Below, piece after piece: positions 3,642 to 60,280 of a stretch of DNA of 64,000 nt (positions are counted from its first letter, which is position 1; every line of letters begins with the position of its first letter). The notes beneath the pieces are model-generated. The model was not told where the DNA came from. It searched no databases and saw nothing but the letters and a program-made list of their open reading frames with translations. Source of the DNA: Gammaproteobacteria bacterium (lineage in GTDB: Bacteria > Pseudomonadota > Gammaproteobacteria > Steroidobacterales > Steroidobacteraceae); assembly GCA_025359565.1 (NCBI GenBank), contig JANYFY010000019.1, forward strand, positions 1 to 64,000, written 5' to 3'. The position numbers were made by a program, and so were the translations under genes.

Positions 3642-3666
3642 GCAGCCATAAGCGGCGTTAAGCCAA

Positions 3667-5250
3667 ATGGCTACTGAACGACTCAATACCAAGGCCGCTG
3701 GCATAGTCGGTCTCGCCGTCATGTGCAGTCGTTTGCTCGGATTGATACGTGAACAACTATTTGCAGCCCTATTCGGAGGCGGTGCGGCGATGGACGCCTT
3801 CATTGCCGCTTTTAGGATTCCAAACCTATTACGCGACCTATTCGCGGAGGGTGCCTTATCAACCGCATTTGTTACCACTTTTAGTAAAACGAGCGCACGC
3901 GAAGGTGAGGCGGCGGCATGGACTCTAGCTAATAAAATTGCGACATTAACGTCGGTAATACTTGGAATCTTATGCATCGCGGGAATGGTTTTCGCAAGAG
4001 AGCTAGTGGCCACCTTAGCGCCGGGTTTTCCAGCGGCAAAAGCCGCTCTTACCGTGCAGCTCACGCGCATCATGTTTCCGTTTATTTTATTGGTATCGCT
4101 CGCGGCACTGGTCATGGGGATGCTCAATGCCAGAAATGTATTTGGTATGCCCGCTATGGCATCGAGCTTCTTCAATATCGGATCTATTGTTGGCGGTGTG
4201 ACCTTGGGTTACTGGATCGACCCGCATTTTGGACCACGCGCACTGATTGGTTTGGCATTCGCGACTGTGTTCGGCGGCGCATTACAACTGGCGGTGCAGC
4301 TCCCGTCTGTGGCACGCCTTGGCTATCGTTTTCGACCCGATTTTCATTGGCGAGATCCTGGCGTTAAAGCCATATTGTTGCTTATGGGACCCGCTGTCAT
4401 TGCCGCGAGCACCACGCAAGTTAACGTTCTGATTAACTCGATTTTTGCATCTACGCTGGGTGATGGACCTATTTTCTGGCTCGCGATTGCGTTTCGACTG
4501 ATGCAATTACCATTGGGATTATTTGGCGTAGCGTTAGGTACAGTAACCTTACCGCTGCTAGCGCGTTTGAGTGCAAGCTTGCAGATGGACGCATTTCGTA
4601 CCGAGCTTGCGTACGCCATACGACTGGGTTTTTTACTCACCATTCCCTCCACTGTTGGGCTCATGCTGCTCGCCGAGCCCATTATTTCGGTGCTTTATCA
4701 ACACGGTAAATTTAATGCGTACCAAGCCGCACAGGCCGCTGCTGCCTTACGTTTTTATGCCATTGGTCTAGCCGGCTACGCGGCACTCAAAGTTTTGGTA
4801 AACGCTTTCTACGCCGTCGATAAACGCAAGACCCCAATGCTTGTCAGCTTCATCGCAGTGGCACTTAATCTGCTATTGAACTGGATATTCACGTTTCAGT
4901 TAGGCTGGGGCCATCGCGGATTGGCGTTTTCCACCGGCTGTATTGCAACGGTCAATTTTCTAATGCTTTATTTGCTAATGCGTAAGCACTTAGGAGGCCT
5001 CGAATCACGACGTATGCTAGTAATGGTGGGAAAAGTTACTGTTGCGGCATTGAGTTTAGCAGCGATTTGCGCCGTATCCTCGCATTGGTTGCTCGCCGAC
5101 TGGCGGACTCAAGGATTTCTAATTAAACTCGGGATATTACTCGGCACTATCGCTATCGGCGGCTTATGCTTTGCGGCGAGTGCCTCAGCCCTGCACATCG
5201 AAGAAATGCACGCAGTTGTCAACAGCATAAGGCGCAAGATCCGCCGCTAG
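3667..5250 (+). CDS. murJ: Lipid II flippase MurJ (MviN)
   Basis: Inner-membrane MOP-superfamily transporter of 527 residues that moves lipid II to the periplasmic face for peptidoglycan synthesis. The N-terminus carries the family signature: GLAVMCSRLLGLIREQL followed by FGGGAAMDAFIAAFRIPNLLRDLFAEGALSTAF, with its conserved Arg and Asp residues. About 14 hydrophobic segments can be counted along the protein. The start at 3667 follows rdgC by 25 bases. Its stop shares four bases (CTAG, 5247-5250) with the stop of the convergent methyltransferase gene, which leaves no room for a terminator. It is complete and ordinary. Confidence 0.96.
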   Translation: MATERLNTKAAGIVGLAVMCSRLLGLIREQLFAALFGGGAAMDAFIAAFRIPNLLRDLFAEGALSTAFVTTFSKTSAREGEAAAWTLANKIATLTSVILGILCIAGMVFARELVATLAPGFPAAKAALTVQLTRIMFPFILLVSLAALVMGMLNARNVFGMPAMASSFFNIGSIVGGVTLGYWIDPHFGPRALIGLAFATVFGGALQLAVQLPSVARLGYRFRPDFHWRDPGVKAILLLMGPAVIAASTTQVNVLINSIFASTLGDGPIFWLAIAFRLMQLPLGLFGVALGTVTLPLLARLSASLQMDAFRTELAYAIRLGFLLTIPSTVGLMLLAEPIISVLYQHGKFNAYQAAQAAAALRFYAIGLAGYAALKVLVNAFYAVDKRKTPMLVSFIAVALNLLLNWIFTFQLGWGHRGLAFSTGCIATVNFLMLYLLMRKHLGGLESRRMLVMVGKVTVAALSLAAICAVSSHWLLADWRTQGFLIKLGILLGTIAIGGLCFAASASALHIEEMHAVVNSIRRKIRR

Positions 5251-6029
5251 TCGGTTTTACGCGTCCCTTTTTTGCGAGCCAACACCGCATGAGTCCGGAT
5301 GTGAATGTCGTTACGCATTTTGTCGCGATGTGCTCTAAGTTTACCTAATAATTTCTTACCCGAACTTTCATGTTTATCTTCCAATGCGGAACCATGCCGA
5401 TAGATCCAAACTCGCGCCGGTGGCAAGTTCAACCAGACGGGAGGCGAAGCTTCTGCGGATATACCCTGTGATAAAAAATGTCGCGAACCTAAAGGAATTG
5501 GCGAATTCATTCCGTAGGTAAATTGCACGAAGCAGCCGTCGGCTCTCATTAGCTCGAATGCTTGATCAATCAAATTGAGCCGCTGACGAGGCGAGCGATT
5601 AAGCAGCGGGAGGCTTGAGACCACCGCCGCCGCCTCAACGTCCAACACACCCGCAAGAGTGTGCGACAAATCATACGCATCCCCCTGCACCACTTGGCAA
5701 CGCGGAAATCGACGCTGTAGCAACCGGCAAAACGCCACGTCATACTCTACAAGTATCAATCGGTCCGGCGCCACACCGCGTTGCAACAGCGCCTGCGTTA
5801 CAGGTCCTGTGCCAGGCCCTAACTCGACAATAGGGCCTGCAATTAAAGGATCTACATACCGCGCCATCATGCGCGCCAGAAAACGTCCCGAAGGAGATAC
5901 CGCACCCGTGCGCAACGGATTTTCAAACCAAGTTTTAAAGAATCGTGCCTCATCCGGCAGCAGTTCATCTATGTAAGGTCGCTTAAGCAGCCGATTGCCG
6001 TTAGCGGTTGGTTTGTGTTTTACACTCAC
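5247..6029 (-). CDS. PmtA-type phospholipid N-methyltransferase
   Basis: Class I SAM-dependent methyltransferase of 260 residues resembling bacterial phosphatidylethanolamine N-methyltransferases (PmtA), which make phosphatidylcholine. Visible features are an N-terminal segment EARFFKTWFENPLRTGAVSP, the SAM motif I VELGPGTGPVTQALL, a motif II acidic residue in LVEYD, GDAYDL, and the C-terminal PPARVWIYRHGS typical of the family. The open frame extends to 6107, but a GTG at 6029 overlaps the rlmB stop as GTGA and removes an N-terminal stretch that does not look conserved, so I start there. It is probably translationally coupled to rlmB. A related rRNA-dimethyltransferase-like activity cannot be excluded. 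PssA is encoded later in the window and would feed the same lipid pathway. Confidence 0.78.
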   Translation of the reverse strand: MSVKHKPTANGNRLLKRPYIDELLPDEARFFKTWFENPLRTGAVSPSGRFLARMMARYVDPLIAGPIVELGPGTGPVTQALLQRGVAPDRLILVEYDVAFCRLLQRRFPRCQVVQGDAYDLSHTLAGVLDVEAAAVVSSLPLLNRSPRQRLNLIDQAFELMRADGCFVQFTYGMNSPIPLGSRHFLSQGISAEASPPVWLNLPPARVWIYRHGSALEDKHESSGKKLLGKLRAHRDKMRNDIHIRTHAVLARKKGTRKTD

Positions 6030-6787
6030 AACGAGTGGCCTCGCTGCCTTCGTGCCTCGAACAGTGCCACTCCCGTCGCCACCGACACATTCAGCGATGT
6101 AGTCCAACCTGCCATCGGAATTCGCACTATGAAATCACATCGCTCGCGCGTCAAGCGCCGCATTCCGTCGCCCTCCGCACCCAATACCAATGCCAAAGGT
6201 CTTTTGAGATCTGTCGCATGTAGAGTTTGCTCGGTTTCCCCCGCTAAGCCTACCACCCAAATACCGCGAGTTTTTAAACCCTCCAAAGTGCGCGCTAAAT
6301 TGGTCACACTCGCCACAGGGACCAGCTCAGCTGCACCCGCCGCAACTTTACGCACCACGGCATCGACAGCAGCAGCTCGATCTTTTGGAATAACGACCGC
6401 GTGGACACCCGCCGCCTCCGCAGTCCTTAAACACGCCCCCAAATTGTGCGGATCGGTAACGCCATCAAGCACCAACAACAAAGGATCACCTTCTATGCGT
6501 TCAAGCGCTGCCATTAGATCATTTTCATCCCATGTGGCGAGCGGGCGAAACGCCGCTACTGCACCTTGATGCGCCGCCGAACCCGCAAGTTTTCCCAGCG
6601 CTTCAACACTGACAAACTGGGGACGAACTCCCGCTTCTTCCGCCCGCGACTTCAAGTCGCGCATACGCTCATCATTACGCGGCTCGGCCAGCCATAACTC
6701 CAATAAGCGCTCTGGAGCGCGGTCAACCACCGCACTAATAGCATGCCAGCCATAAACCAAGGTACGCTTACGACCTGGCACGTCCAC
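6026..6787 (-). CDS. rlmB: 23S rRNA (guanosine-2'-O-)-methyltransferase RlmB
   Basis: SPOUT-family enzyme that 2'-O-methylates G2251 in the P loop of 23S rRNA. The N-terminal substrate-binding domain begins VYGWHAISAVV. The C-terminal trefoil-knot domain shows LDGVTDPHNLGACLRTAEAAG, VLGAEGDGMRRL and IPMAGWTTSLNVSVATG. The frame is open to 6994, inside rnr. I chose the GTG at 6787 because an AAAGG lies about 11 bases upstream and the product of 253 residues fits the family (243-255). This gives a 20-base overlap with the rnr stop. Another GTG at 6781 is possible. The rnr-rlmB pair is conserved in many proteobacteria. Confidence 0.93.
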   Translation of the reverse strand: MDVPGRKRTLVYGWHAISAVVDRAPERLLELWLAEPRNDERMRDLKSRAEEAGVRPQFVSVEALGKLAGSAAHQGAVAAFRPLATWDENDLMAALERIEGDPLLLVLDGVTDPHNLGACLRTAEAAGVHAVVIPKDRAAAVDAVVRKVAAGAAELVPVASVTNLARTLEGLKTRGIWVVGLAGETEQTLHATDLKRPLALVLGAEGDGMRRLTRERCDFIVRIPMAGWTTSLNVSVATGVALFEARRQRGHSL

Positions 6788-9119
6788 GCTCAGCTTTGCC
6801 TTTCGACCGTGCTGGACGAGCGGAAGAGCCGCGACGCGGTGCCCGCACCGTCCCATGAGTAGCAGAGGATTCGGCATCAAGAAGCTCAAAATCAATCTGG
6901 CGCTGTGCCAAGTCAACACGACTGAGGCGTACCCGCACCCCATCACCCATTTGCCAACGTCGACCAGTGCGTTGACCGACCAGACCCATTCCACCCGACT
7001 CTAATTCCCAGTAATCCCCTGGAATTGCCGAGATATGCACCAAGCCGTCAATGGGCATTTCCTTTAATTGTACAAACAAGCCAAATTCCAGCGCGCTAGA
7101 AATAGTCGCATCAAAACTTTCCCCTACTCGCGGCAACAAATACAAACATTTCAGATAACTCATGACATCGCGGGCTGCATCATCTGCACGCCGCTCGCGT
7201 TGCGAGCTTTCTTGACCCAACGCTTGCAATTCGGTCGTGCTGTAGCGATGGCCCGATGTTGATTGAGCCAACACCGCAGCTTTCAGAGCACGATGCACCA
7301 ATAAATCTGGATAGCGCCGAATCGGCGAGGTAAAGTGAGCGTACTCTTCAAGCGCTAATCCAAAATGACCTATATTGGTTTGTTGGTACACAGCCTGCGC
7401 CAGCGAACGAATAACCAGACTCTCTAATAAAAGGCCGTCCGGCCGCGCACTTAAGCGTTCGACTAACTGGCGGAATTCACGCGGCGTTGGCTTCTCAGAA
7501 AATATCGCCCCTACTTGCAAGGCACTCATCACTTTCTGTAATTCGGTCACCCGTTTATCTTCGGGTTGGCCATGGACTCGGTACAGGCTTCCCGCCTTCG
7601 CCAACCGCAACGCCACCGCTGCTTCGACATTCGCCGCAATCATACATTCCTCGATTAGGCGATGCGCATCGTTGCGAGTAACGGTATAAAAGCCCTCAAT
7701 AGTGCCATTTTCGCCGATTCGTGCCTTATTCTCCCCGCCCCTGAAATCTAACGCGCCCCGCGCGTCGCGTGCGATTTTGAGTGCCTTATAAACCGCATAT
7801 AACATTTGCAGCGAATTGCGCACAGCCGGGGTCAACACAGGTACTGCAGCAGCATCATCTGGCTGCTCTAAATAGGCCCACGCCTGATTGTAAGTTAAGC
7901 GCGCATGCGAGCAAATCACCGCTTCATAGAAACGCGATCGACTCAACTTACCCGCCTTGCTAACCCGCATATCGCATACAAAGGCCAGACGATCAACCCG
8001 TGGCATGAGCGAGCATAAATTATTCGACAGCTGTTCGGGCAACATCGGTAACACTCGATCCGGAAAGTACACCGAAGTCGCACGTGCCCTTGCTTCCATA
8101 TCTAAAGGACTGGCATAGCGAACATAGTGACTGACATCGGCAATGGCTACGACCAACCGCCAGCCACCCCCGCGTTGCGCTTCTGCATAGACCGCGTCAT
8201 CAAAATCCTTAGCATCCTCGCCGTCAATGGTCACTAAGGGTAAATCGCGTAAGTCCTCACGATACGCATAGTCGCTATTACTCACGCTATTGCCGTACTG
8301 TTTAGCTTGGGCAATCACCTCGGGCGGAAACGCCTCTGGCAAATCGTGACGCAAAATTGCAAAGCGCGCCGCAAGATCGGAAGCGCGCATCTGCTTTAGT
8401 ACCTCGATTATTCGGCCCTGCGCAGGCTTTTCACCGGAAGGGCGCTTGAGAATTTCAACCACCACCGAATCACCCGATTCCGCACCGTGACGATCACGCG
8501 ACGCCACCTCCACTGAGTACCAATGACCTGGATCTTCAGGCTCCACTCGGCCACTTCTAGCTCCTTGCCATACGCCGCCGATCCTTGCGGGTGAACTCTC
8601 AATACGTCGCAGCAATCGGCTTAGGCGTCTCCCCCGGTCATTAACACCCACGGCCCGCACTTCCACCCGATCATTATGCATAAGCGTCGCCGCATCAGCG
8701 CGAGCAAGTAGCAGAGGTGTTGAACCATCATCAGGCATCACCAACACTTCACCGCTGGCACGACCCCGCACGCGGCCAGCGATGCGCTCAGCAATCCCTG
8801 CAACAGCAAAACCTTTAGCCCCTTCAATTGCCTGGCCCTCTCTGACCATAGCAGCCAATCGTTTACGTAAGGCATCTCGCTGCGCGTCGGTTCCCAACCC
8901 TAGGCGCTTGGCGAGTCGGGCAGCCGTGAGAGGTTCAGGAGCGTCCGCTAAATGCGTTAATAAAAGCTCACGGCTCGCAATGGGGTCCGAGTAACGCGCC
9001 TTCTCACGCTCCAAATTCGGATCCTCACCACGCCAATCCTTGCTGGCGCCGCCGCCGCCTGTTGTGCGGGGGCCCCCACGGCCCCGCGCATTATTCTTAC
9101 CCTGGGGCGCACGGGTCAT
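6768..9119 (-). CDS. rnr: Ribonuclease R
   Basis: Processive 3'-to-5' exoribonuclease of 783 residues that degrades structured RNA. Domains in order are an N-terminal winged-helix segment (about residues 45-100), cold-shock domains, the RNB catalytic domain with the metal-binding Asp cluster in DGEDAKDFDDAVYAE near residue 300, and an S1 domain starting near residue 660 (GESFDATISSALEFGLFVQL). A basic tail rich in Arg, Ser and Lys ends the protein. The extreme N-terminus is Gly/Arg-rich and low in complexity. It is followed by rlmB with a short overlap. The upstream 128 bases lie between rnr and tRNA-Leu, which reads the other way. Confidence 0.95.
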   Translation of the reverse strand: MTRAPQGKNNARGRGGPRTTGGGGASKDWRGEDPNLEREKARYSDPIASRELLLTHLADAPEPLTAARLAKRLGLGTDAQRDALRKRLAAMVREGQAIEGAKGFAVAGIAERIAGRVRGRASGEVLVMPDDGSTPLLLARADAATLMHNDRVEVRAVGVNDRGRRLSRLLRRIESSPARIGGVWQGARSGRVEPEDPGHWYSVEVASRDRHGAESGDSVVVEILKRPSGEKPAQGRIIEVLKQMRASDLAARFAILRHDLPEAFPPEVIAQAKQYGNSVSNSDYAYREDLRDLPLVTIDGEDAKDFDDAVYAEAQRGGGWRLVVAIADVSHYVRYASPLDMEARARATSVYFPDRVLPMLPEQLSNNLCSLMPRVDRLAFVCDMRVSKAGKLSRSRFYEAVICSHARLTYNQAWAYLEQPDDAAAVPVLTPAVRNSLQMLYAVYKALKIARDARGALDFRGGENKARIGENGTIEGFYTVTRNDAHRLIEECMIAANVEAAVALRLAKAGSLYRVHGQPEDKRVTELQKVMSALQVGAIFSEKPTPREFRQLVERLSARPDGLLLESLVIRSLAQAVYQQTNIGHFGLALEEYAHFTSPIRRYPDLLVHRALKAAVLAQSTSGHRYSTTELQALGQESSQRERRADDAARDVMSYLKCLYLLPRVGESFDATISSALEFGLFVQLKEMPIDGLVHISAIPGDYWELESGGMGLVGQRTGRRWQMGDGVRVRLSRVDLAQRQIDFELLDAESSATHGTVRAPRRGSSARPARSKGKAERGRARS

Positions 9120-9187
9120 TGGGGTGAACTACCGCGCATGATTGCGGTTTTAATGAATACTTTTTGCAATTGAACTAAGAGCATTAA

Positions 9188-9216
9188 TTGACAAGCCTTT
9201 GTTGTGTGCGTACATT
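9188..9216 (+). promoter_or_regulatory. Sigma70-type promoter of tRNA-Leu
   Basis: TTGACA at 9188-9193 is a perfect -35 consensus. It is followed after exactly 17 bases by TACATT at 9211-9216. The tRNA gene begins 31 bases after the -10 end, and the stretch just after the -10 (CTGCGCC) is G+C-rich, like the discriminators of stable RNA promoters under stringent control. Confidence 0.75.
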
Positions 9217-9247
9217 TCTGCGCCTTAACGGTTGAACGGTCCATCTT

Positions 9248-9332
9248 GCCCAGGTGGCGGAACTGGTAGACGCGCTGGTTTCAGGTACCAGTGGAGCAAT
9301 TCGTGGAGGTTCGAGTCCTCTCCTGGGCACCA
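9248..9332 (+). tRNA. tRNA-Leu (anticodon CAG)
   Basis: An 85-base class II tRNA with an encoded CCA end. The acceptor stem GCCCAGG pairs with CCTGGGC. The D loop contains GGTAGA, the anticodon stem CTGGT/ACCAG encloses loop TTCAGGT with CAG at 9282-9284, and a variable arm and the T arm with GGTTCGAGTCC follow. It decodes CUG. It lies in the same tRNA-Leu/rnr/rlmB neighbourhood seen in other proteobacteria. No T-rich intrinsic terminator follows; a weak inverted repeat GTCATT...AATGAC lies at 9336-9367. Confidence 0.97.
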
Positions 9333-9573
9333 TAAGTCATTTAGTTTCAATATACTAGGGGAATGACGCCACGACCTCCAACAGAGCGACTGAGGATTCT
9401 GGTTTAGGGCAGATCATTCCCAACCACGTCTGTGACTGCAGTAATAGCCACTCGGCAAACTCTCAGGCCAATTTGGGCACAAGCCACTAACTCACTCCTT
9501 GCCATAGCGAATACAATACGGCGTCTAACGCCCCACTATTGACGGGCCCTATTTGGAAGCCTTTAAAGGAATT
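9333..9573 (+). other. Gene-free leader upstream of the oxidoreductase operon
   Basis: No open frame of note is present in these 241 bases. A TACAAT at 9512-9517 could be a -10 element for the downstream operon, but no convincing -35 sits at the right distance. A short CTCTCAGG sequence recalls the glycine riboswitch core, but the partner helix is missing. The region must contain the tRNA-Leu 3' end and the promoter of the following operon. Confidence 0.5.
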
Positions 9574-11367
9574 ATGGAACCGACCGACACTTCAAAATCT
9601 GACTATTTTCACAAAGTAGTGGACTGTCAGTGGGCCTGTCCAGCGCACACGGATGTCCCTGAATACATTCGCCTTATCGCACAGGGTGAGTTCACTGACG
9701 CCTACATGGTCAATCGCGCGTCCAATGTGTTTCCGGGAATATTAGGCAGAGTCTGTGACAGACCCTGCGAACCTGCCTGTCGACGCGGTCGCATTGCGGA
9801 CAAGCCGGTTGCCATTTGCCGACTGAAACGCGTCGCTGCTGATCAGCGCGACGACATTAGCGCACTACTGCCCAAAACGCCCGATCAGAAAAACGGTAAA
9901 CGGATCGCCTGCATCGGTGCAGGACCCGCTTCGTTGACGGTCGCCAATGATTTACTGCCCCTAGGATACGAAGTCACCATTTTTGAACAGTTTGCTGTGC
10001 CTGGCGGATTGATGCGAACAAACATTCCCGCTTTTCGCCTACCCGCAAGCGTGCTAGATGAAGAGATCGCCTACATTGTCAATATGGGCGCGGACCTGCG
10101 CCTAAATTCACCCATCCACAGCCTAAAAAAATTATTACAAGACTCGCTATTCGACGCGGTATTTGTGGGTTCCGGCGCGCCGAAAGGCAAAGAACTCGAT
10201 CTACCTGGTCGCCACGATACCAATCGTGTGCACATCGGCATTAGTTGGCTTGAATCCGTCGCGTTTGATCACATCAAAGAAATTGGCGAGCGGGTACTAA
10301 TTATTGGCGTTGGGAATACTGCGATGGATTGTTGTCGCAGTTCGCTGCGCTTAGGTGCTAAACAAGTCAAGGTCATGGCACGTAAGCCCAGGCAGTACTT
10401 TAAAGCCTCTCAGTGGGAGCTTGAAGATGCCGAACATGAAAATATAGAAATTGTCGTGAATCACGCACCGAAATCTTTCGTAAGCGAAGCGGGTCGGCTC
10501 ACTGGAATGCTGTTTGAGAAATTAGAATACGATATTGAGAATGGTGAAATAACTAAGACACGAAATTTAGGCGAGGTCTTTATACCTTGCGATGATGTCA
10601 TTCTCGCCATTGGCCAAGAAAATGCTTTCCCTTGGATCGAAAAAGACATCGGCATTGAGTTCGATCCATGGAGTGTCCCTAAAGTCGGGAGTCAGAATTT
10701 TCAGTCAACATTGAAACAAGTATTCTTCGGCGGCGATGCTGCCTTCGGCCCTAAGAATATCATCTGGTCCGTAGAACATGGACATCAAGCGGCCATTTCG
10801 ATGCACAAGTTTTGCCAGAATGAATCCATCGACGATCGGCTACCGCGTGGCGTGACTCTCTCCAGTCGCAAAATGGGTATGCATGAGTGGGCTTTCAAGA
10901 ATGAGTATAACGGGGCGGAACGACGACTCGTTCCGCACGTGGGGCTTGTCGAGCGCTTTAAGAAAATAAATGTTGAAGTGGAATTAGGTTTCACCGCGGA
11001 ACAAGCTGCCCTCGAAGTACAGCGATGTTTGAATTGTGATATGCAGACGGTCTTTGCAGCCCCACTATGTATCGAATGTGATGCGTGCATTGATATTTGC
11101 CCGGTAGATTGTCTTACGATTACCCACAATGGTACAGAAGCCGATTTACGCACTCGACTTAAGGCCCCCGCTAAAAATGTCGCTCAAGCCTTATACGTAT
11201 CGACTGGCCTACCGCACACTGGCCGTGTCATGGTAAAAGACGAAGACGTCTGCGTGCATTGCGGGTTGTGCGCGGAGCGCTGCCCCACCGCTGCTTGGGA
11301 TATGCAAAAATCTAACATCTCGATTCCGCATGCAATTAATCAAAAGGCTGTCGCATGCCAAATTTAA
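9574..11367 (+). CDS. GltD/NfnB-like FAD oxidoreductase fused to a 2x[4Fe-4S] ferredoxin domain
   Basis: A 597-residue flavoprotein related to the glutamate synthase small subunit and to NfnB. The N-terminal Fe-S region has Cys in CQWACP, CDRPCEPACRRG and ICRLKR. The FAD Rossmann motif is CIGAGPASLTVANDL, and the pyridine-nucleotide motif is LIIGVGNTAMDCCRSSLRLG. The C-terminal 90 residues form a ferredoxin with CIECDACIDICP and CVHCGLCAERCP, each fit to bind a [4Fe-4S] cluster. It overlaps the alpha-subunit gene by 13 bases, so it most likely passes electrons between the 2-oxoacid oxidoreductase and NAD(P)(H). That role is inferred. I chose ATG 9574 over TTG 9553 because homologues start shortly before DYFHKVVDCQ; an AAGGA lies 3 bases upstream, which is close. 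Confidence 0.85.
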   Translation: MEPTDTSKSDYFHKVVDCQWACPAHTDVPEYIRLIAQGEFTDAYMVNRASNVFPGILGRVCDRPCEPACRRGRIADKPVAICRLKRVAADQRDDISALLPKTPDQKNGKRIACIGAGPASLTVANDLLPLGYEVTIFEQFAVPGGLMRTNIPAFRLPASVLDEEIAYIVNMGADLRLNSPIHSLKKLLQDSLFDAVFVGSGAPKGKELDLPGRHDTNRVHIGISWLESVAFDHIKEIGERVLIIGVGNTAMDCCRSSLRLGAKQVKVMARKPRQYFKASQWELEDAEHENIEIVVNHAPKSFVSEAGRLTGMLFEKLEYDIENGEITKTRNLGEVFIPCDDVILAIGQENAFPWIEKDIGIEFDPWSVPKVGSQNFQSTLKQVFFGGDAAFGPKNIIWSVEHGHQAAISMHKFCQNESIDDRLPRGVTLSSRKMGMHEWAFKNEYNGAERRLVPHVGLVERFKKINVEVELGFTAEQAALEVQRCLNCDMQTVFAAPLCIECDACIDICPVDCLTITHNGTEADLRTRLKAPAKNVAQALYVSTGLPHTGRVMVKDEDVCVHCGLCAERCPTAAWDMQKSNISIPHAINQKAVACQI

Positions 11368-13193
11368 GCGCCCAGGCGAATCATGTAAACGATTTTGTCA
11401 TAAAATTTTCCAACGTTAACGGCACGGGCTCGGCGAGCTCTAATTCACTAATCATGAAAGCGATTTTTCGCATGGGTGTGCCGGTGACGGGGAAAAACTA
11501 TTTCCCCTCTAATATTCAAGGCTTACCAACCTGGTACGAAATTCGTATCACTCGCGACGGCTATGCGGCACGCGCTAGCCGCATCGATATTATGGTCGCC
11601 ATGAATGCGGAAACTTATGCGAAGGATGTGCGCGAGTTAAGTTCCGGTGGGTTCTTGATTTATGACTCTACTTGGCCGCGCAGCTCGCTACTCCAGCGTG
11701 GCGATATCACGGTGATCGGCGTGCCATTGGCTCAACTCGTGAATGAAAATTTCGATGGCATTCGCAATCGCATCCTGCTCAAAAATGTGGCCTATGCCGG
11801 CCTGCTGGCGGCCTTGATTGATGTCGATTTAGACGTCATAAGCGGATTGCTGCGCGAAAGTTACGCAAAAAAACCCAAGCTACTCGATTCAAACACCAGG
11901 GCGCTGCGTTTAGGCTACGATTACGTCAAGCAGCACTTGAATTCTCCGCTATCTCTTAGGGTCGAACCGATGGACAAGACCCGCGGCTCGATTATGATTG
12001 ACGGCAACACCGCCGCAGGTTTGGGCTGTGTGTTTGCGGGTGCTACGGTGGGTGCCTGGTATCCTATTACCCCCTCAACGTCTTTAATGGACGCTTTCAA
12101 AGGCTTCTGTGATCGTTATCGTGTCGATTCGCAGACTGGGGAACGTAATTTTGCTATTTTACAAGCCGAGGATGAATTAGCAGCGATAGGTATGGTGCTA
12201 GGCGCGGCCTGGAACGGCGCGCGCGCGTTCACTCCGACGAGTGGTCCCGGCATTTCCCTAATGAACGAATTTGTTGGGTTGGCGTACTACGCAGAAGTCC
12301 CTTGCGTCATATTCGACGTACAACGGGTCGGACCTTCCACTGGCATGCCAACGCGCACCCAGCAATCCGACATTATGCTCTGCGCCTACGCCTCGCACGG
12401 CGATACACGGCATGTACTCTTATTCCCAGCGAACCCGGAAGAATGTTTTTATCTATCGGTACAAGCTTTTGATATCGCAGAAAAATTGCAAACACCCGTT
12501 TTCGTGCTATCGGATCTTGATATCGGTATGAACGATTGGATGTGTCCGGATTTAAAATGGGATGACGCTTATAGACCCGACCGCGGCAAGATTCTTTCGA
12601 GCGACGAAATCGACAAACTTGAGAAATTTTATCGCTATGTGGATCGCGATGACGATGCTATTACGTATCGCACCTTACCCGGAGTAAATCCAAAAGGCGC
12701 CTACTTCACACGTGGCTCCGGCCACAATCAATATGGCGTCTATACAGAAGACTCGTCCGAATACCAAGGGGTGCTGGATCGCCTTAAACGCAAGTTTAGC
12801 AACGCGCCCCGCTATTTACCCAAGCCGATCATTCTGGGCAGGGGCAGTAACGAGGTGGGCATTGTCAGTGTGGGGAGTTGCGATGGTGCCATCCGCGAAG
12901 CGCTGGATATCTTAGGCAAACAGAAAATCGAAGTGGACTATTTACGCGTACGGGCGTTCCCTTTCAATCACGAGGTTGAACATTTCCTGAAAACTCACTC
13001 CACCATTTTCGTGGTCGAACAGAATCGCGATGCTCAGCTTAAAATGTTACTCACCCTGGAGACCGCCGTGGAGAAATCTAAGTTATTTTCGATACTCAGT
13101 TACAGTGGTTTCCCAATGTCGGCCGAACCTGTGGTGAACGGCATTCGCGAAAAACTTGCCGAAGCTCCCAGGCTCAGCGTCGTGAAATCTTAA
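11355..13193 (+). CDS. korA: 2-oxoacid:acceptor oxidoreductase, fused gamma-alpha subunit
   Basis: A 612-residue subunit of a thiamine-diphosphate 2-oxoacid oxidoreductase, probably acting on 2-oxoglutarate. The first 190 residues are the gamma domain (NGTGSASSNSLIMKAIF, PVTGKNYFPSNIQGLPTWYE). From about residue 215 the alpha domain follows with DGNTAAGLGCVFAGATVGAWYPITPSTS, then ALGAAWNGARAFTPTSGPG and RVGPSTGMPTRTQQSD. This is the gamma-alpha fusion seen in two-subunit KGOR enzymes. The ATG overlaps the flavoprotein gene by 13 bases and the beta gene follows after 11 bases, so all three form one operon. Substrate choice between 2-oxoglutarate and other 2-oxoacids cannot be read from the sequence. 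Confidence 0.88.
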   Translation: MPNLSAQANHVNDFVIKFSNVNGTGSASSNSLIMKAIFRMGVPVTGKNYFPSNIQGLPTWYEIRITRDGYAARASRIDIMVAMNAETYAKDVRELSSGGFLIYDSTWPRSSLLQRGDITVIGVPLAQLVNENFDGIRNRILLKNVAYAGLLAALIDVDLDVISGLLRESYAKKPKLLDSNTRALRLGYDYVKQHLNSPLSLRVEPMDKTRGSIMIDGNTAAGLGCVFAGATVGAWYPITPSTSLMDAFKGFCDRYRVDSQTGERNFAILQAEDELAAIGMVLGAAWNGARAFTPTSGPGISLMNEFVGLAYYAEVPCVIFDVQRVGPSTGMPTRTQQSDIMLCAYASHGDTRHVLLFPANPEECFYLSVQAFDIAEKLQTPVFVLSDLDIGMNDWMCPDLKWDDAYRPDRGKILSSDEIDKLEKFYRYVDRDDDAITYRTLPGVNPKGAYFTRGSGHNQYGVYTEDSSEYQGVLDRLKRKFSNAPRYLPKPIILGRGSNEVGIVSVGSCDGAIREALDILGKQKIEVDYLRVRAFPFNHEVEHFLKTHSTIFVVEQNRDAQLKMLLTLETAVEKSKLFSILSYSGFPMSAEPVVNGIREKLAEAPRLSVVKS

Positions 13194-13204
13194 GGCCCAT
13201 CTGC

Positions 13205-14263
13205 ATGTCGTACATCAACAAACCCAGAGTTGCTCACCCTTCGTTGCCCACTAATTCCCTAGGAATGACACGCCGGCAATACGAAGGCAGTATGTCTACC
13301 CTGTGTGCCGGCTGCGGTCATGACTCAATCACCGCGGCGGTTACCGAGGCCTGCTGGGAGCTTTCGATGCGCCCGGAGCGATTAGTTAAATTATCGGGCA
13401 TCGGATGTTCGTCGAAAACGACGGCCTATTTTGTCAGCGGAGCGCATGGGTTTAACGCAGTTCACGGCCGCATGCCCTCAATCGCCAGCGGCGCCAATGC
13501 AGCCAATCGTGAGTTGACTTATATTGGGGTATCCGGCGATGGCGACTCGCTATCCATAGGCATCGGCCAACTTGTTCACGTGATTCGTCGCAATGTGAAC
13601 ATGCTATACCTCATCGAAAACAATGGCGTGTATGGACTGACCAAGGGGCAATTTTCAGCCTCAGCGGATATCGGCACCAAGGCCAAGCGCGGCGAAGTCA
13701 ATGCAACGGCACCCATTGATCCTGTGCTGTTAGCCTTAAGCTTAGGCGCGACATTCGTCGCACGTAGTTTCTCAGGGGATAAGGCACAGCTGGTCCCGTT
13801 GATCCAAGCGGGTTTGCGGCACAATGGTTTCGCGCTCATCGACATACTCTCACCCTGCGTGACGTTCAATGACCACGAAGGATCAACCAAAAGCTACACT
13901 TTTGCGCGCGAGAATTATCATGCGGTGGTTGAGGCAGATTTTGTACCCCCGGCCGAAGAAATAGCAGTGGAGTACGCGGCCGGTGAGGCCGTGCCGGTTA
14001 AATTACACGATGGTAGCCAGGTAGTTTTAAGAAAATTAGACCCAAGCTACGATGCTACTGACCGTAGTGCAGCCTACGCTTATATAGAAGCAAAACTTAA
14101 AAAACACGAATACGTGACCGGGCTCATTCACATCGACGAAAATAGCAGCACTGAGTTCCACACCCTGAATCACAGCGCAACGCTGCCTCTGAATAGCATT
14201 CCTTATGAGAAGCTATCCCCCGGAAGCGCCGCGCTTAACAAATTGATGAATCGCTATCGATAA
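13205..14263 (+). CDS. korB: 2-oxoacid:acceptor oxidoreductase, beta subunit (thiamine diphosphate binding)
   Basis: A 352-residue beta subunit that binds thiamine diphosphate and one [4Fe-4S] cluster. Cluster ligands are visible as CAGCGH near residue 36, GIGCSS near residue 67 and SPCVTFND near residue 219. The diphosphate/metal motif is GVSGDGDSLSIG followed by IENNGVYGLTKGQ. The C-terminal third (from about residue 260) is not a separate ferredoxin, so the ferredoxin function is presumably supplied by the fused first gene of the operon. With the alpha subunit it should convert 2-oxoacid plus CoA to acyl-CoA and CO2, or the reverse, using low-potential electrons. It is the last gene of the operon and converges on purA. 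Confidence 0.88.
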   Translation: MSYINKPRVAHPSLPTNSLGMTRRQYEGSMSTLCAGCGHDSITAAVTEACWELSMRPERLVKLSGIGCSSKTTAYFVSGAHGFNAVHGRMPSIASGANAANRELTYIGVSGDGDSLSIGIGQLVHVIRRNVNMLYLIENNGVYGLTKGQFSASADIGTKAKRGEVNATAPIDPVLLALSLGATFVARSFSGDKAQLVPLIQAGLRHNGFALIDILSPCVTFNDHEGSTKSYTFARENYHAVVEADFVPPAEEIAVEYAAGEAVPVKLHDGSQVVLRKLDPSYDATDRSAAYAYIEAKLKKHEYVTGLIHIDENSSTEFHTLNHSATLPLNSIPYEKLSPGSAALNKLMNRYR

Positions 14264-14455
14264 CCTCAGCCTCCAGGGGACCCACTGGAGCTCGTTTGCT
14301 GTTTTCGCCCGAGCCGTGCATCACCAACACCAGCCGCGCTCCCTGCGCCAATCCCCGCGGCAAGTAGCTCAAGCTACGTCCGCTTCAGCCTACCTACCTC
14401 AATGGATCCCTTAAGGCCCAGTGCGTAGATGAGCACGGGACCATGGGACTTATTC
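14264..14455. other. Convergent intergenic region with a possible terminator hairpin
   Basis: These 192 bases separate the stops of the beta-subunit gene and purA. A perfect inverted repeat CTCCAG/CTGGAG spans 14271-14290 just after the first stop, but no run of T follows on either strand. A near-palindrome GTAGCTCAAGCTAC lies at about 14364-14377. No coding frame is convincing. Confidence 0.45.
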
Positions 14456-15757
<1,302 letters not shown>

Positions 15758-15970
15758 TTATCCATTGCGAGCCACCCACAACAAGGCGATTCCCGCCAGC
15801 ATGCTGATCAATCCGCCCCAGCGCAAATGGGTCGGATCGGTTTGTGCTAATTTAGCCATGACCCTTTGTGCAGCCAATGGATTTAAAAACGGCAGCACAC
15901 CTTCTAACACTAAGTAGATTGCAAACGCGCCGCCGAAATAGCGCAGGAGTTCATCCCAACCGATGTTCAT
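15758..15970 (-). CDS. Small DUF2065 (YjeT-like) inner-membrane protein
   Basis: A 70-residue protein with two hydrophobic segments, about residues 10-28 and 50-66, separated by a short polar turn. Sequence and position (between hflC and purA) match the DUF2065/YjeT family, whose function is not established. The ATG at 15970 is preferred over GTG 15976 because AAGG lies 6 bases before it. It belongs to the hfq-hflX-hflK-hflC-purA transcription unit, and its position next to the HflKC protease regulators is conserved in other proteobacteria. Confidence 0.85.
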   Translation of the reverse strand: MNIGWDELLRYFGGAFAIYLVLEGVLPFLNPLAAQRVMAKLAQTDPTHLRWGGLISMLAGIALLWVARNG

Positions 15971-15985
15971 TGCCACCCTTGGTCG

Positions 15986-16858
15986 CTAGTGTGGTGCTAG
16001 CGATTTGCCAAAATACTTAAAATAAGCACTATCGGGGGCAATTACAAGCACATCGCCACTCGTACCTATCGAATCCCGATAGGATTGCATACTGCGGTAG
16101 AAACTATAAAACTCGCCGTTCTTTGAATAAGACTTCGCATATACCTCACTCGCGGAAGCATCACCCTGACCGCGTATTTGCCCCGCCTGGCGAGCGGCAT
16201 CCGCAAGAATTTCAGTTTGCTGTTTATTAGCTTGCGCCCGAGTACGCTCAGAATTCTCAACGCCTTCTGCGCGCAGCTTAGCGGCCTGCGCTTTGAACGT
16301 TGCACGCATACGTTCGTACACCGAATCTCGCACTTGTTGCGGCAAATCGATTTTTGTTATCCGCACGTCGACAAGCTCGACGCCCAACTGCTCGGCAGCC
16401 GGTCGAGCATTTTTCATCATGGCATCGGTAAACTCAGTGCGTTCGGCGGTAATAACTTGTTGCAACGTACGCTGCGTGACCACGCTTTTGATGCTGTCCT
16501 TGATAGTCTCACCTAAGCGCGCATTGGCAGCCTCTTCGGTGCCACCGGTTGACTCGTAATATCTACGTAAATTTTGGATACGCCATTTCACGTAAAAATC
16601 AACATTAAGCTGTTCTTGTTCGCGGGTCAGGAAGCGCTCCGCCGGATACAGTTGCGTAATGATGCGCTTATCAAACAGACTAACCTCATTCACCAGCGGA
16701 ATACGAAAATGGAGTCCTGGAAGATAAGATGAATCGACGATTTGGCCACCGGTAGATTTGATGGCCAGCTGACCTTCGCTCACCGTAAAAACAGTCGCGC
16801 GTATCGACAAAATCAATACCACAGCGACTAGTAATCCAATCAACGCTTTATTTTGCAT
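15986..16858 (-). CDS. hflC: FtsH protease modulator HflC
   Basis: A 290-residue SPFH/band-7 protein that forms a large periplasm-facing assembly with HflK around the membrane protease FtsH. One N-terminal transmembrane segment (about residues 5-22, GLLVAVVLILSI) is followed by the band-7 domain (SEGQLAIKSTGGQI, LPGLHFRIPLVNEV) and a long helical region rich in Ala, Arg and Gln (KAQAAKLRAEGVENSERTRA). The length fits HflC. The ATG shares its A with the hflK stop (TGATG), suggesting coupled translation and a 1:1 product ratio. Confidence 0.95.
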   Translation of the reverse strand: MQNKALIGLLVAVVLILSIRATVFTVSEGQLAIKSTGGQIVDSSYLPGLHFRIPLVNEVSLFDKRIITQLYPAERFLTREQEQLNVDFYVKWRIQNLRRYYESTGGTEEAANARLGETIKDSIKSVVTQRTLQQVITAERTEFTDAMMKNARPAAEQLGVELVDVRITKIDLPQQVRDSVYERMRATFKAQAAKLRAEGVENSERTRAQANKQQTEILADAARQAGQIRGQGDASASEVYAKSYSKNGEFYSFYRSMQSYRDSIGTSGDVLVIAPDSAYFKYFGKSLAPH

Positions 16859-17937
16859 CAGCGTACGCCTCGCGCCCGCGCAGGATCTTCGGCTAGCGGC
16901 ACGGATGCATCCGGCAAACGCGCCGGGGCTACGGTCATGGTGTCATTCGGTAAGGTCACCGTCTGTGCCGCGCCTAAAATCAATTTATCCAATGGCAAAT
17001 ACATCATGTTGCCGCTCTTAGTATCCACAATTACTTTACGTGAATTTTTGTACACGTTCTCCATAGTATCGAGATACATGCGTTCGCGAGTAACCACCGG
17101 AGAATGTTCATACTGGGTCAGCACCTGATCGAAGCGTGCTGTTTGGCCCTGCGCTAACGCTAGCACTTGCAGCCTATAGGCTTCAGCATCCAGCACTTCC
17201 TTAGCCGCTGCACCGCGCGCTCGTGGCAAGACGTCATTACGATACCCTTCGGCGTCTTTCTGAATGCGTTGACCATCTCTGTCGGCCTTGAGTACATCCC
17301 GTTGCGCGTCCTGAACTGCTTCGGGCACCATTACATCGGTCAACTTAACGCTTAAAATATGCACTCCCAAATCGTAGCTGTTTAATGTTTGCTGCAACAA
17401 AATCTGCGCACGTTCATTGATCGAAGGGTCTTTCGCCAAAGCTCTATCGAGCGACGCTTGGCCCACCGCTTCACGCATGGCACTTTCACTGACCTGAGCC
17501 AAGGTCTCCTCAACGTCGCGCACTCTAAACAATAATTTCAAAGGATCAGGTTGGGTATATTGAACCGCCGATTTAACCTCGACCAAGTTTGTATCTGCCG
17601 TCAACATGCTAGTGTCATCAGTCACACTATATAAACGCGAGACGTTGACTACGATATCGCGCTCGATCGGCCACGGAAGGTGCCAGTTGTAACCTGGACC
17701 TGTGGTCTGAACATACTGACCAAAACGTAATATCACCGCTTTTTCCTGAGCATCCACCCGATAAATACCACTTGCTAGCCACAGCAAGGCAAGCACAATC
17801 AACCCTATACTTAGGCCACGATGAACGCTCGCAGGACTTGCAACCGCGCTACCCGAACCGCCACTACGACCGAATAAAGTTGCTACGCGCCGCTGAATAT
17901 TGCGCAAAATCTCGTCTAAATCACTCTGCTTCGCCAT
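16858..17937 (-). CDS. hflK: FtsH protease modulator HflK
   Basis: A 359-residue SPFH/band-7 partner of HflC. A cytoplasmic Gly/Ser/Arg-rich N-terminus (GRSGGSGSAVA) precedes one transmembrane segment at about residues 48-65. The band-7 domain begins VDAQEKAVILRFGQYVQT and contains GPGYNWHLPWPIE. The C-terminal part is helical and ends in a Pro/Arg-rich tail. It starts 10 bases after the hflX stop and overlaps hflC by one base, in the conserved hfq-hflX-hflK-hflC order. Confidence 0.95.
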   Translation of the reverse strand: MAKQSDLDEILRNIQRRVATLFGRSGGSGSAVASPASVHRGLSIGLIVLALLWLASGIYRVDAQEKAVILRFGQYVQTTGPGYNWHLPWPIERDIVVNVSRLYSVTDDTSMLTADTNLVEVKSAVQYTQPDPLKLLFRVRDVEETLAQVSESAMREAVGQASLDRALAKDPSINERAQILLQQTLNSYDLGVHILSVKLTDVMVPEAVQDAQRDVLKADRDGQRIQKDAEGYRNDVLPRARGAAAKEVLDAEAYRLQVLALAQGQTARFDQVLTQYEHSPVVTRERMYLDTMENVYKNSRKVIVDTKSGNMMYLPLDKLILGAAQTVTLPNDTMTVAPARLPDASVPLAEDPARARGVR

Positions 17938-17947
17938 TCTTTAATGC

Positions 17948-19243
17948 CTAATGTAAGTTAACGTTGCCGCCATTATCTACCAAGTCGACACCCTTGCGTC
18001 CCAACACTTTCGCAATCTCGGATAAATCCAGTTCCACCGCAATTTCCCAGCTTCCATCCTCACATTGCTTTTCACCACGCACCGCATTGCGCTGGTATAG
18101 CTCTGAACGCAGACTAGCCGCCGCCAACGGTAAGTGAAGCGTACGTTTTACTTGATGAGGCCTTACACCGCGACTTAGCGCTGCGCGCACCAAATCCAAA
18201 CCCGCACCACTCACCGCGGATCCCCAAACCTGGGACGGCATGCCATCCTGCCCTACGAGTACCCGCGCCGACTCCTCAATCAGGTCGATCTTATTAAAGA
18301 CTAACAGCTCACGTACGTGCCCCGCACCAATGTCAGATAACACCTTGCGCACCTGGTGAATTCGTTCATCGCGCTTCGGATCACTCGCGTCAACAACGTG
18401 CAACAATAAATCAGCATCCCGCGCCTCTTGTAGGGTCGAGCGAAAAGCGGCGATCAATTCATGCGGTAATTCGCGCACGAATCCCACCGTATCGGCCAGC
18501 ACGACCTCGCCAATACCCGCGATTTCAATCCGTCGCACAGTGGGATCGAGGGTCGCGAACAATTGATCGGCCACAAAAGTAGTGGCGCCGGTCAGCGCGT
18601 TAAATAGCGTGGACTTACCGGCATTGGTATAGCCCACGAGGGCGACGGTCGGAACCGGTACCTCGCGCCTTACATGACGACCGGTATCTCGCTGTTGTGC
18701 TAATTTCTCAAGTCTAGTTTGCAAATGTCGTATGCGCTTGGCAATTAGTCTTCGGTCAGTTTCAAGCTGGGTTTCGCCGGGCCCGCGTAAACCAATGCCG
18801 CCCTTCTGCCGTTCCAAGTGGGTCCAACCTCGAACCAGCCGAGTGGACAAGTGGGAAAGCTGGGCAAGTTCGACCTGTAACTTCCCTTCAAAGCTTCGAG
18901 CGCGCTGAGCAAATATGTCTAAAATCAGACCGTTACGATCTAATACTCGACGACATGTGAGCTGCTCAAGATTGCGTTCCTGGCTGGGGCTAAGGGTTTG
19001 ATCGACCAACACCACGTCAGCATCGTGCTCCTCGGCCACGGCTTTAATCTCCTCAGCCTTCCCCGATCCCACAAAATATCGAGGATCTGGCCTAGAACGG
19101 TTGGCAATAATCACTCCGACGGTCTGCGTGCCCGCCGACGCTGCTAGCGCTTTGAACTCCGCGGTATCATGCGGATCGACATTATGACCTATGCCGACAC
19201 CCACTAAAATAGCGCGTTCGCCACCGCGAGGTCGCTCAAACAA
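17948..19243 (-). CDS. hflX: Ribosome-associated GTPase HflX
   Basis: A 431-residue GTPase that binds the 50S subunit and rescues or splits stalled ribosomes. An N-terminal HflX domain (VGSGKAEEIK, LVDQTLSPSQERNLE, LDRNGLILDIFAQRA) is followed by a helical linker with the Gly-rich GGIGLRGPGETQLETDRR. The G domain has G1 GYTNAGKST, G3 DTVGF and G4 NKID. The short C-terminal domain ends the protein. It lies 15 bases after hfq and 10 bases before hflK on the same strand. Confidence 0.96.
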   Translation of the reverse strand: MFERPRGGERAILVGVGIGHNVDPHDTAEFKALAASAGTQTVGVIIANRSRPDPRYFVGSGKAEEIKAVAEEHDADVVLVDQTLSPSQERNLEQLTCRRVLDRNGLILDIFAQRARSFEGKLQVELAQLSHLSTRLVRGWTHLERQKGGIGLRGPGETQLETDRRLIAKRIRHLQTRLEKLAQQRDTGRHVRREVPVPTVALVGYTNAGKSTLFNALTGATTFVADQLFATLDPTVRRIEIAGIGEVVLADTVGFVRELPHELIAAFRSTLQEARDADLLLHVVDASDPKRDERIHQVRKVLSDIGAGHVRELLVFNKIDLIEESARVLVGQDGMPSQVWGSAVSGAGLDLVRAALSRGVRPHQVKRTLHLPLAAASLRSELYQRNAVRGEKQCEDGSWEIAVELDLSEIAKVLGRKGVDLVDNGGNVNLH

Positions 19244-19258
19244 CGGTAAATCGTCCGG

Positions 19259-19516
19259 TCACTCGACGATCGCCGGTTCCGTCACTTCGCCATCCTCACC
19301 CGTGGTCATGCGCACATTACGTGCTGGAACCACCGTGGAAATAGCATGTTTGTAGACCATTTGACTGACGCTATTGCGCAACAAAATTACAAATTGATCA
19401 AACGAATCGATCTGCCCCTGTAATTTGATGCCATTCACCAGGTAGATAGAAACCGGTACGCGTTCTTTCCGTAGTGCATTTAAAAAGGGGTCTTGTAGAG
19501 TTTGGCCACGGGCCAT
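19259..19516 (-). CDS. hfq: RNA chaperone Hfq
   Basis: An 85-residue Sm-like protein that forms a hexamer and helps small RNAs pair with mRNAs. The Sm1 motif ([19 protein letters not shown]) and the Sm2 motif [10 protein letters not shown] are intact, including the Gln and Lys of the uridine-binding proximal face. The C-terminal tail is short. AAGGAG lies 8 bases before the ATG, which is the strongest ribosome-binding site of this cluster. It stands between miaA and hflX, as in Escherichia coli. Confidence 0.98.
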
Positions 19517-19550
19517 AGGATGAGCTCCTTATTATTGGTTTCAATTACCT

Positions 19551-20504
19551 TCAGAATCCTAGCACAGCCAGAGTATCACGGGCAGAATCTACAACCTCAG
19601 GATGGCTGCAACTAAATCGACGTGCTTGCGGTCGCTGCCGGATCCAGGTCATCTGACGTTTTGCGAGCTGCCGAGTCGCAATTACCGCACGCTCAATCGC
19701 TTGCTCCAATTTAAATTCTCCGGCTAAAAATTGCCACAATTGCCTATATCCGACCGCACGCATGGCCGAATGTTCCGCACTCAGATCGCCACGAGCAAAT
19801 AACCCCCGCATTTCGTCGAGAAATCCAGCCGCCATCATGCCTCGAAAACGCTTTTCCAGCCCCACGTTGAATTCCTGCCTCTGCGTGGGCGCCAACACCC
19901 ACTCAGTGACCTCCACATCCGCTAATACACTAACGCGCTTTTGTTGCAGACTGGTGATGGTCGCGCCGCTGACGCGAAATACCTCCAAAGCCCGTTGAAT
20001 CCGTTGTGCGTCGTTGGCGTGAATTCGTGCCGCGGCGAGCGGATCAACAGATTCCAATTGATGATGCATCGCAGGCCAGCCGTGCGCCACGGCCTGTGCA
20101 TCGATCGCTGCGCGCACTACGAAGTTTGCCTCAGGTAAGTCGGCAATACCCGCTGTAAGCGCGTGGAAATACAACATGGTGCCACCGACTAACAATGGCT
20201 GGTGGCCGCGCGCCCAAATGCCTTCCATCACCGTTCTAGCATCCATAACAAACTCGCCCGCCGAATATTGAGTAGTCGCTTCGCGGATATCAATGAGATG
20301 ATGTTTTATACGCGCGCGAGTAGCGAAGTCCGGCTTAGCGGTCCCGATATCCATACCGCGATACACCAGCGCCGAATCGACGCTGACAATCTCCAAGGGA
20401 AAATGCTCCGCCAGGCGGACCGCGAGGTCAGATTTACCCGAGCCTGTCGGTCCCATTAACAAGAGTGCCCGGCGCTTCATCGTGGTCGTGGCCTGTGCCT
20501 GCAT
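19551..20504 (-). CDS. miaA: tRNA dimethylallyltransferase MiaA
   Basis: Transfers a dimethylallyl group to A37 of tRNAs that read codons starting with U. Visible motifs are the P-loop GPTGSGKSDLA, the DSALVYRGMDIGTAKP segment with the catalytic Asp, LVGGTMLYFHAL and RQLAKRQMTWIR. The frame is open to 20579, but an ATG at 20504 overlaps the mutL stop as TGATG and gives 317 residues, the normal size. An alternative ATG lies at 20480, closer to the P-loop. The mutL-miaA-hfq order is conserved and coupling with mutL is likely. Confidence 0.95.
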   Translation of the reverse strand: MQAQATTTMKRRALLLMGPTGSGKSDLAVRLAEHFPLEIVSVDSALVYRGMDIGTAKPDFATRARIKHHLIDIREATTQYSAGEFVMDARTVMEGIWARGHQPLLVGGTMLYFHALTAGIADLPEANFVVRAAIDAQAVAHGWPAMHHQLESVDPLAAARIHANDAQRIQRALEVFRVSGATITSLQQKRVSVLADVEVTEWVLAPTQRQEFNVGLEKRFRGMMAAGFLDEMRGLFARGDLSAEHSAMRAVGYRQLWQFLAGEFKLEQAIERAVIATRQLAKRQMTWIRQRPQARRFSCSHPEVVDSARDTLAVLGF

Positions 20505-60221: not shown

Positions 60222-60280
60222 AGGGCTGCAATTGTACCGTAGACCGACTAATTTCGCGTGGTATGGCATAATTGCGAAGA

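Follow-up and report, generated by a model that had tools for sequence, protein, structure and literature searches.

A three-gene operon at positions 9574 to 14263 of the window, a 64,000-nucleotide stretch (contig JANYFY010000019.1) from a gammaproteobacterium of the Steroidobacteraceae, encodes a flavoprotein-ferredoxin fusion (F), a fused gamma-alpha subunit (A) and a beta subunit (B) of a 2-oxoacid oxidoreductase, in the order F-A-B. Judging from the sequence, the trio probably oxidizes a 2-oxoacid, for example 2-oxoglutarate, with direct transfer of the electrons to NAD(P). We are fairly confident that the three subunits constitute a KorABC-type oxidoreductase that links 2-oxoacids to NAD(P), most likely acting on 2-oxoglutarate and in the oxidative direction, with F wired to A and B. 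The system is mostly ordinary, and its design has a precedent in print in the NADP-linked 2-oxoglutarate oxidoreductase of Azoarcus evansii.

Subunits and conserved gene order

The preliminary description of this DNA, made from its letters alone, had recognized the 3 subunits and argued for a single operon from a 13-base overlap (11355-11367) and an 11-base gap (13194-13204). Both are present in the sequence, the open reading frames (ORFs) and their frames match, and profile searches recovered the gamma-alpha subunit, the beta subunit and a flavin adenine dinucleotide (FAD) protein with two C-terminal [4Fe-4S] motifs, so that the one-operon claim and the subunit calls are both borne out. The features are as follows (TPP, thiamine pyrophosphate; aa, amino acids).

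9574-11367, forward strand: F (597 aa, 66.1 kDa), an FAD/NAD(P) oxidoreductase that carries a fused 2[4Fe-4S] ferredoxin domain
9622-9849, forward strand: Fer4_20 N-terminal cluster domain of F, with profile positions 1-30 missing (the match begins at 31) and C18, C22, C61, C65, C69 and C82 invariant
9901-10782, forward strand: F domains that bind FAD and NAD(P) (Pyr_redox_2)
11026-11037, forward strand: invariant CxxC of F (C485, C488), ahead of the ferredoxin domain, found by alignment
11068-11295, forward strand: C-terminal dicluster ferredoxin domain of F (C499/502/505/509 and C560/563/566/570)
11355-13193, forward strand: A, fused gamma-alpha subunit of 2-oxoacid:acceptor oxidoreductase (612 aa, 67.8 kDa; TIGR03710)
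11421-11921, forward strand: POR (gamma) domain of A (residues 23-189)
12030-12518, forward strand: POR_N domain of A (residues 226-388), with YPITP at 12060-12074 and Arg324 at 12324-12326
13205-14263, forward strand: B, beta subunit with a TPP domain and one [4Fe-4S] site (352 aa, 37.8 kDa)

The start of F at ATG 9574 is supported by the conservation of Met1 in at least 90% of a 30-row alignment and by a purine-rich AAAGGA 3 nt upstream; a longer ORF from TTG 9553 exists but is unneeded. Conservation was assessed in family alignments of 87 rows for F, 85 for A and 82 for B, from which incomplete hits and those below 45% were excluded, with near-duplicates retained. A scores 569.2 bits against TIGR03710 (2-oxoacid:acceptor oxidoreductase alpha, OAFO_sf), above the cut-off of 482.75, and has the fused gamma-alpha architecture of that family; it also gives a weak PFOR_II match. 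B carries TPP_enzyme_C (81.3 bits), and its C34, C37, C68 and C218 are invariant in all 82 rows, as in a single-cluster beta subunit of 2-oxoacid:ferredoxin oxidoreductases (OFORs), while its score against TIGR02177 (PorB_KorB; 215.6 bits over residues 33-226) lies under the cut-off of 261.9 and leaves it outside that model. Solved relatives of A and B include 6n2n (Magnetococcus), the best for A, and the Sulfolobus enzymes 5b46/5b48.

F is a GltD/NfnB-like protein and combines Fer4_20, Pyr_redox_2 and Fer4_7. Its best NCBIfam match, NF009410/PRK12771, runs nearly end to end at 381.5 bits, short of the cut-off of 516 for membership. Both C-terminal CxxCxxCxxxC motifs are present with all ligand cysteines invariant, and 19 cysteines of F are invariant altogether (18, 22, 61, 65, 69, 82, 253, 254, 485, 488, 499, 502, 505, 509, 513, 560, 563, 566, and 570). 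The truncation of the N-terminal cluster domain and the CxxC at C485/C488 were absent from the preliminary description. In GltD-type proteins, Fer4_20 opens with a CxxC, which would fall within the part missing from F; our guess is that C485/C488 may take its place. The solved relatives of F, by sequence and by fold, are NfnABC, StnABC, NfnI, GltD and DPD. The fold matches, the best of which in Foldseek were Nfn/Stn/GltD/DPD, come from an AlphaFold2 model of modest confidence built on 28 rows (mean predicted local distance difference test score [pLDDT] 66, predicted template modelling score 0.52), whose cluster domains lie largely below a pLDDT of 50.

The wired route from 2-oxoacid to NAD(P) put forward in the preliminary description is the most natural reading of this domain anatomy. 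A and B would bind TPP and coenzyme A (CoA) and oxidatively decarboxylate the 2-oxoacid to acyl-CoA and CO2, the substrate being most likely 2-oxoglutarate and possibly also pyruvate and 2-oxobutyrate. Electrons would exit singly via the single [4Fe-4S] cluster of B and be accepted by the C-terminal ferredoxin domain of F, which would replace a free ferredoxin or delta subunit; the N-terminal cluster and then FAD would relay them to NAD(P)+.

The suggestion that the three-gene set may exist in other genomes also held up. A scan of GTDB genomes with F yielded at least 593 confirmed relatives, the best 80 loci of which, by record title, span Gamma- and Alphaproteobacteria, Acidobacteria, Gemmatimonadetes, Actinobacteria, Myxococcales, Bacteroidetes, Ignavibacteriae and others. 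Among these 80, the F-A-B order on one strand is conserved in 64 of the 67 loci whose sequence continues for 3.2 kb or more beyond F, the other 13 being too short. In the 3 exceptions (L058, L060, and L061), A is found elsewhere in the genome at 60%-63% identity, and in two of these genomes it is fragmented. The same order recurs in 20/20 further loci, 18 from the class-level search described below and 2 from relatives G048 and G050 (in one, L122, F is cut by the contig end). Across 60 related genomes, with thresholds of E < 1e-248 for A and E < 1e-100 for F, orthologues of the two genes occur in the identical 44 genomes, adjacent in 43 and on separate contigs in G039; G037 and G052 have distant OFORs only. 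A is present in 22 of 276 genomes of the class, each at least 90% complete (49%-100% identity, E of 1e-190 or better), the next best match being at E 1e-72 and 31% identity. The distribution is patchy, even inside the genus. The trio is also found, in F-A-B order, on a Variovorax megaplasmid and, at 53.6%-57.9% identity, on plasmid 2 of Aromatoleum aromaticum EbN1, where it is annotated as FAD-dependent oxidoreductase, 2-oxoacid:acceptor oxidoreductase alpha and 2-oxoacid:ferredoxin oxidoreductase beta. Just ahead of the trio on this A. aromaticum plasmid (L099, 2089-4853) are two acyl-CoA dehydrogenase genes and a CBS-domain gene, a possible substrate hint. We do not claim a natural F-A fusion in G006. 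Its long open frame (1235 aa) is by itself no proof, and 20 bases separate the F match (3338-5098) from the A match (5119-6906).

Substrate, complex formation and direction

Pocket positions were mapped by eye from pairwise alignments with the solved relatives. The YPITP motif of A is conserved, with one Ile-to-Leu change among the 85 rows, and Thr239 and Arg324 of A align with residues to which the carboxylate of the substrate binds in the OFORs of Sulfolobus tokodaii (StOFOR), according to the residue roles given in PMC5020499. Four residues of the variable-substrate pocket (Ser52 and Thr329 of A, Lys71 and Leu145 of B) are identical to those of StOFOR1. Lys71 is conserved and corresponds to K49 of StOFOR1, whose substitution K49I abolished 2-oxoglutarate activity (PMC5020499). 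The pocket is thus compatible with 2-oxoglutarate, without deciding the substrate.

A second line of evidence comes from the classical 2-oxoglutarate dehydrogenase (OGDH), whose loss in trio-bearing organisms the preliminary description had proposed to look for. The genome of the organism itself speaks otherwise, having sucA (1210.6 bits) and sucB (548.7 bits) as neighbouring genes, and most other carriers keep sucA as well; OGDH loss as a general correlate, or the trio as a general replacement, was accordingly rejected. Matches to sucA were found in 56/60 relatives, and the 4 genomes without one (G008, G041, G048, and G050) all have F and A. G008, which is 81% complete and still has a SucB above cut-off, was removed from the list of OGDH losses. 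In the class sample, sucA is detected at E 1e-50 or better in 214/276 genomes and in 21 of the 22 carriers, G215 alone lacking it. Of the tricarboxylic acid (TCA) cycle genes, sucA, sucB, SucC and the Iso_dh family were looked at in G041 (98% complete), G048 (92%), G050 (99%, about 10 contigs) and G215 (97%, in a single contig): each is without sucA and without a sucB above cut-off, and each has SucC and two genes of the isocitrate dehydrogenase (Iso_dh) family. The retention of the latter genes in carriers devoid of sucA and sucB suggests 2-oxoglutarate as a substrate, and in these 4 genomes the obvious candidate to carry out the 2-oxoglutarate step is the trio. In the organism studied here, it seems to work beside an intact OGDH, and in a few relatives to stand in for it. 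The locus in G215 (L116) lies on a single contig of 1.2 Mb in which neither sucA nor a lipoyl E2 beyond fragments was found, and G215 may have no 2-oxoacid dehydrogenase complex at all.

Several observations weigh against 2-oxoglutarate as the substrate or against a link to OGDH loss. Asp468 of StOFOR1 is replaced by Ser455 in A (Ser in 83/85 rows, Thr in 2/85), and PMC5020499 records loss of 2-oxoglutarate activity upon D468A. Hydrogenobacter KorA, specific for 2-oxoglutarate, has Leu at this position. The complete sucA and sucB of the organism itself point the same way, as does the presence of a second, distant OFOR in G041. The occurrence of the trio in 4/4 relatives lacking sucA is not significant (p 0.28), and in the class sample carriers are slightly enriched in sucA (absent from 1/22 carriers vs 61/254 non-carriers; Fisher p 0.034). 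In G215, where no E2 match beyond fragments was found, pyruvate could be the substrate. Finally, no conserved substrate gene was found in the flanks of the 80 loci, in which clusters of flanking ORFs reflect lineage synteny.

Some of these points feed a serious, if less probable, alternative, namely that the enzyme acts chiefly on a different 2-oxoacid (pyruvate, 2-oxobutyrate, or one with a branched-chain or aromatic group) and that the role lies in amino-acid catabolism or redox overflow rather than in a TCA step. Beyond the intact OGDH and the lack of an E2 match above fragments in G215, it draws on the broad specificity of StOFOR1, whose pocket is alike but for one residue, and on an ORF read by eye as ilvA that lies nearby on the opposite strand in some relatives, itself a matter of lineage synteny. 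The conserved pocket Lys and the SucC and Iso_dh genes of the OGDH-less carriers argue for 2-oxoglutarate instead; the PadG model of phenylglyoxylate:NAD+ oxidoreductase (Pad) reaches 50.1 bits against a cut-off of 700, and the IOR models likewise fall far under theirs.

It is unlikely that F and A-B are co-transcribed without forming one complex, F being then a ferredoxin-NAD(P) reductase that diffuses freely and brings along a carrier domain. The 3 loci with F apart from A-B and the separate contigs of G039 would fit such an arrangement, whereas the near-universal F-A-B order, the perfect co-occurrence of F and A, and the correlation of their distance matrices (r 0.90, with the species tree not controlled for) favour a wired complex.

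As to direction, the preliminary description had also allowed for CO2 fixation, which is left without support: no reductive-TCA gene was seen in a partial look at the neighbours. Carboxylation driven by NAD(P)H would be thermodynamically uphill, and we regard it as very unlikely that F works mainly in reverse, with NAD(P)H reducing the fused ferredoxin domain and low-potential electrons going to another acceptor or to reductive carboxylation by A-B; sucAB is present in the genome, and no second flavoprotein subunit of an electron-bifurcating Nfn was found among same-strand ORFs in 6000-20000, the rest of the genome not having been searched. In its favour, fold relatives of F include the Nfn/Stn transhydrogenases, and one paper cites the A. 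evansii enzyme as the means by which reduced ferredoxin is regenerated when aromatic rings are reduced.

If the wiring from 2-oxoacid to NAD(P) is true, two routes for one oxidation, lipoate/NAD+ and Fe-S/NAD(P)+, are open to these bacteria, and the first may be gone from some of them. The trio, patchy yet cohesive over many phyla, offers a good test case for the move of OFORs from ferredoxin to NAD(P), and it cautions that "korAB" genes need not signal reductive CO2 fixation or anaerobiosis. Only tentatively, and with more doubt than belief, we extend this to a widespread and largely unstudied NAD(P)-wired OFOR, present in lineages thought to live with oxygen (e.g., Maricaulis), that would let some streamlined bacteria drop the lipoate-dependent OGDH and run an oxidative TCA cycle, with F rebuilding its N-terminal cluster site with C485 and C488 into an uninterrupted cluster wire.

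Genomic setting

No other gene appears to belong to the operon, which seems limited to F, A and B. To the left of F are a tRNA-Leu(CAG) gene and two opposite-strand ORFs recognized by eye from their translations as rnr and rlmB; the ORFs to the right were identified in the same way as purA, hflC, hflK, hflX, hfq and miaA. Rfam at gathering scores gave the tRNA alone and no riboswitch upstream of the trio, and promoter and terminator scans returned counts at chance level. Horizontal insertion at the tRNA gene is unsupported, the GC content of the trio (0.497-0.523) being only slightly under that of its neighbours; across 83 loci, the mean difference between trio and flanks is -0.003.

Elsewhere in the window, a forward-strand ORF of 798 aa (60272-62668) combines HEAT repeats (HEAT_2, 156.5 bits) with a following protein kinase domain (182 bits) and is succeeded by a T2SSE-type ATPase gene (62707-63798). 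Another forward-strand ORF (30549-32495; 648 aa), between a FimV_N protein and a glycosyltransferase, has no Pfam match at E 1e-10.

Comparison with known systems

The closest counterpart is the 2-oxoglutarate:NADP+ oxidoreductase of Azoarcus (Aromatoleum) evansii, reportedly described by Ebenau-Jehle, Boll and Fuchs in 2003. This KorABC is said to consist of three subunits of about 66-67, 34 and 67 kDa, to contain FAD, TPP and Fe-S, and to use NADP+. Measured against this yardstick, the trio agrees in its fused alpha-gamma, beta and FAD/NADP subunits (67.8, 37.8, and 66.1 kDa, respectively); the comparison at the sequence level is made through the congener A. aromaticum EbN1 and its F-A-B genes. 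The subunit sizes are close to those of A. evansii; given its presence in A. aromaticum, the trio is likely of the KorABC type, found far outside anaerobic aromatic degraders. It differs from the A. evansii enzyme in that nothing known connects it with the anaerobic reduction of aromatic rings, no search for benzoyl-CoA reductase having been made in this genome. The preference for NADP over NAD comes only from likeness to the A. evansii enzyme and to GltD. No paper on the trio as such was found in the open-licence full-text literature, from which subscription papers are mostly absent.

Phenylglyoxylate:NAD+ oxidoreductase, PadEFGHI, is likewise said to be an OFOR with its own flavoprotein subunit, which delivers electrons to NAD+. 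It differs in its reportedly five separate subunits and in the PadG model, far from matched here. StOFOR1/2, the Magnetococcus OGOR (6n2n) and Hydrogenobacter KorAB share the gamma-alpha fusion, the single-cluster beta subunit and catalytic residues with A and B, but these two-subunit enzymes use a free ferredoxin, and the accessible portions of their sources describe no flavoprotein partner. NfnB, StnB, GltD and domain I of DPD share Fer4_20 and the FAD/NAD(P) fold with F. In F, however, the beginning of Fer4_20 is missing, and its operon encodes no second subunit for bifurcation. A further parallel is provided by a conjugative plasmid of Phenylobacterium zucineum (NC_011143; L101), on which a PRK12771 gene directly precedes nifJ. 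Its product, too, is a GltD-like flavoprotein with a C-terminal ferredoxin domain adjoining an OFOR, but the partner is a single-chain pyruvate:ferredoxin oxidoreductase, and the flavoprotein passes the PRK12771 cut-off at 742 bits, whereas F does not. A GltD-ferredoxin fusion has thus been paired with an OFOR a second time, independently, and this pair, too, may be NAD(P)-linked.

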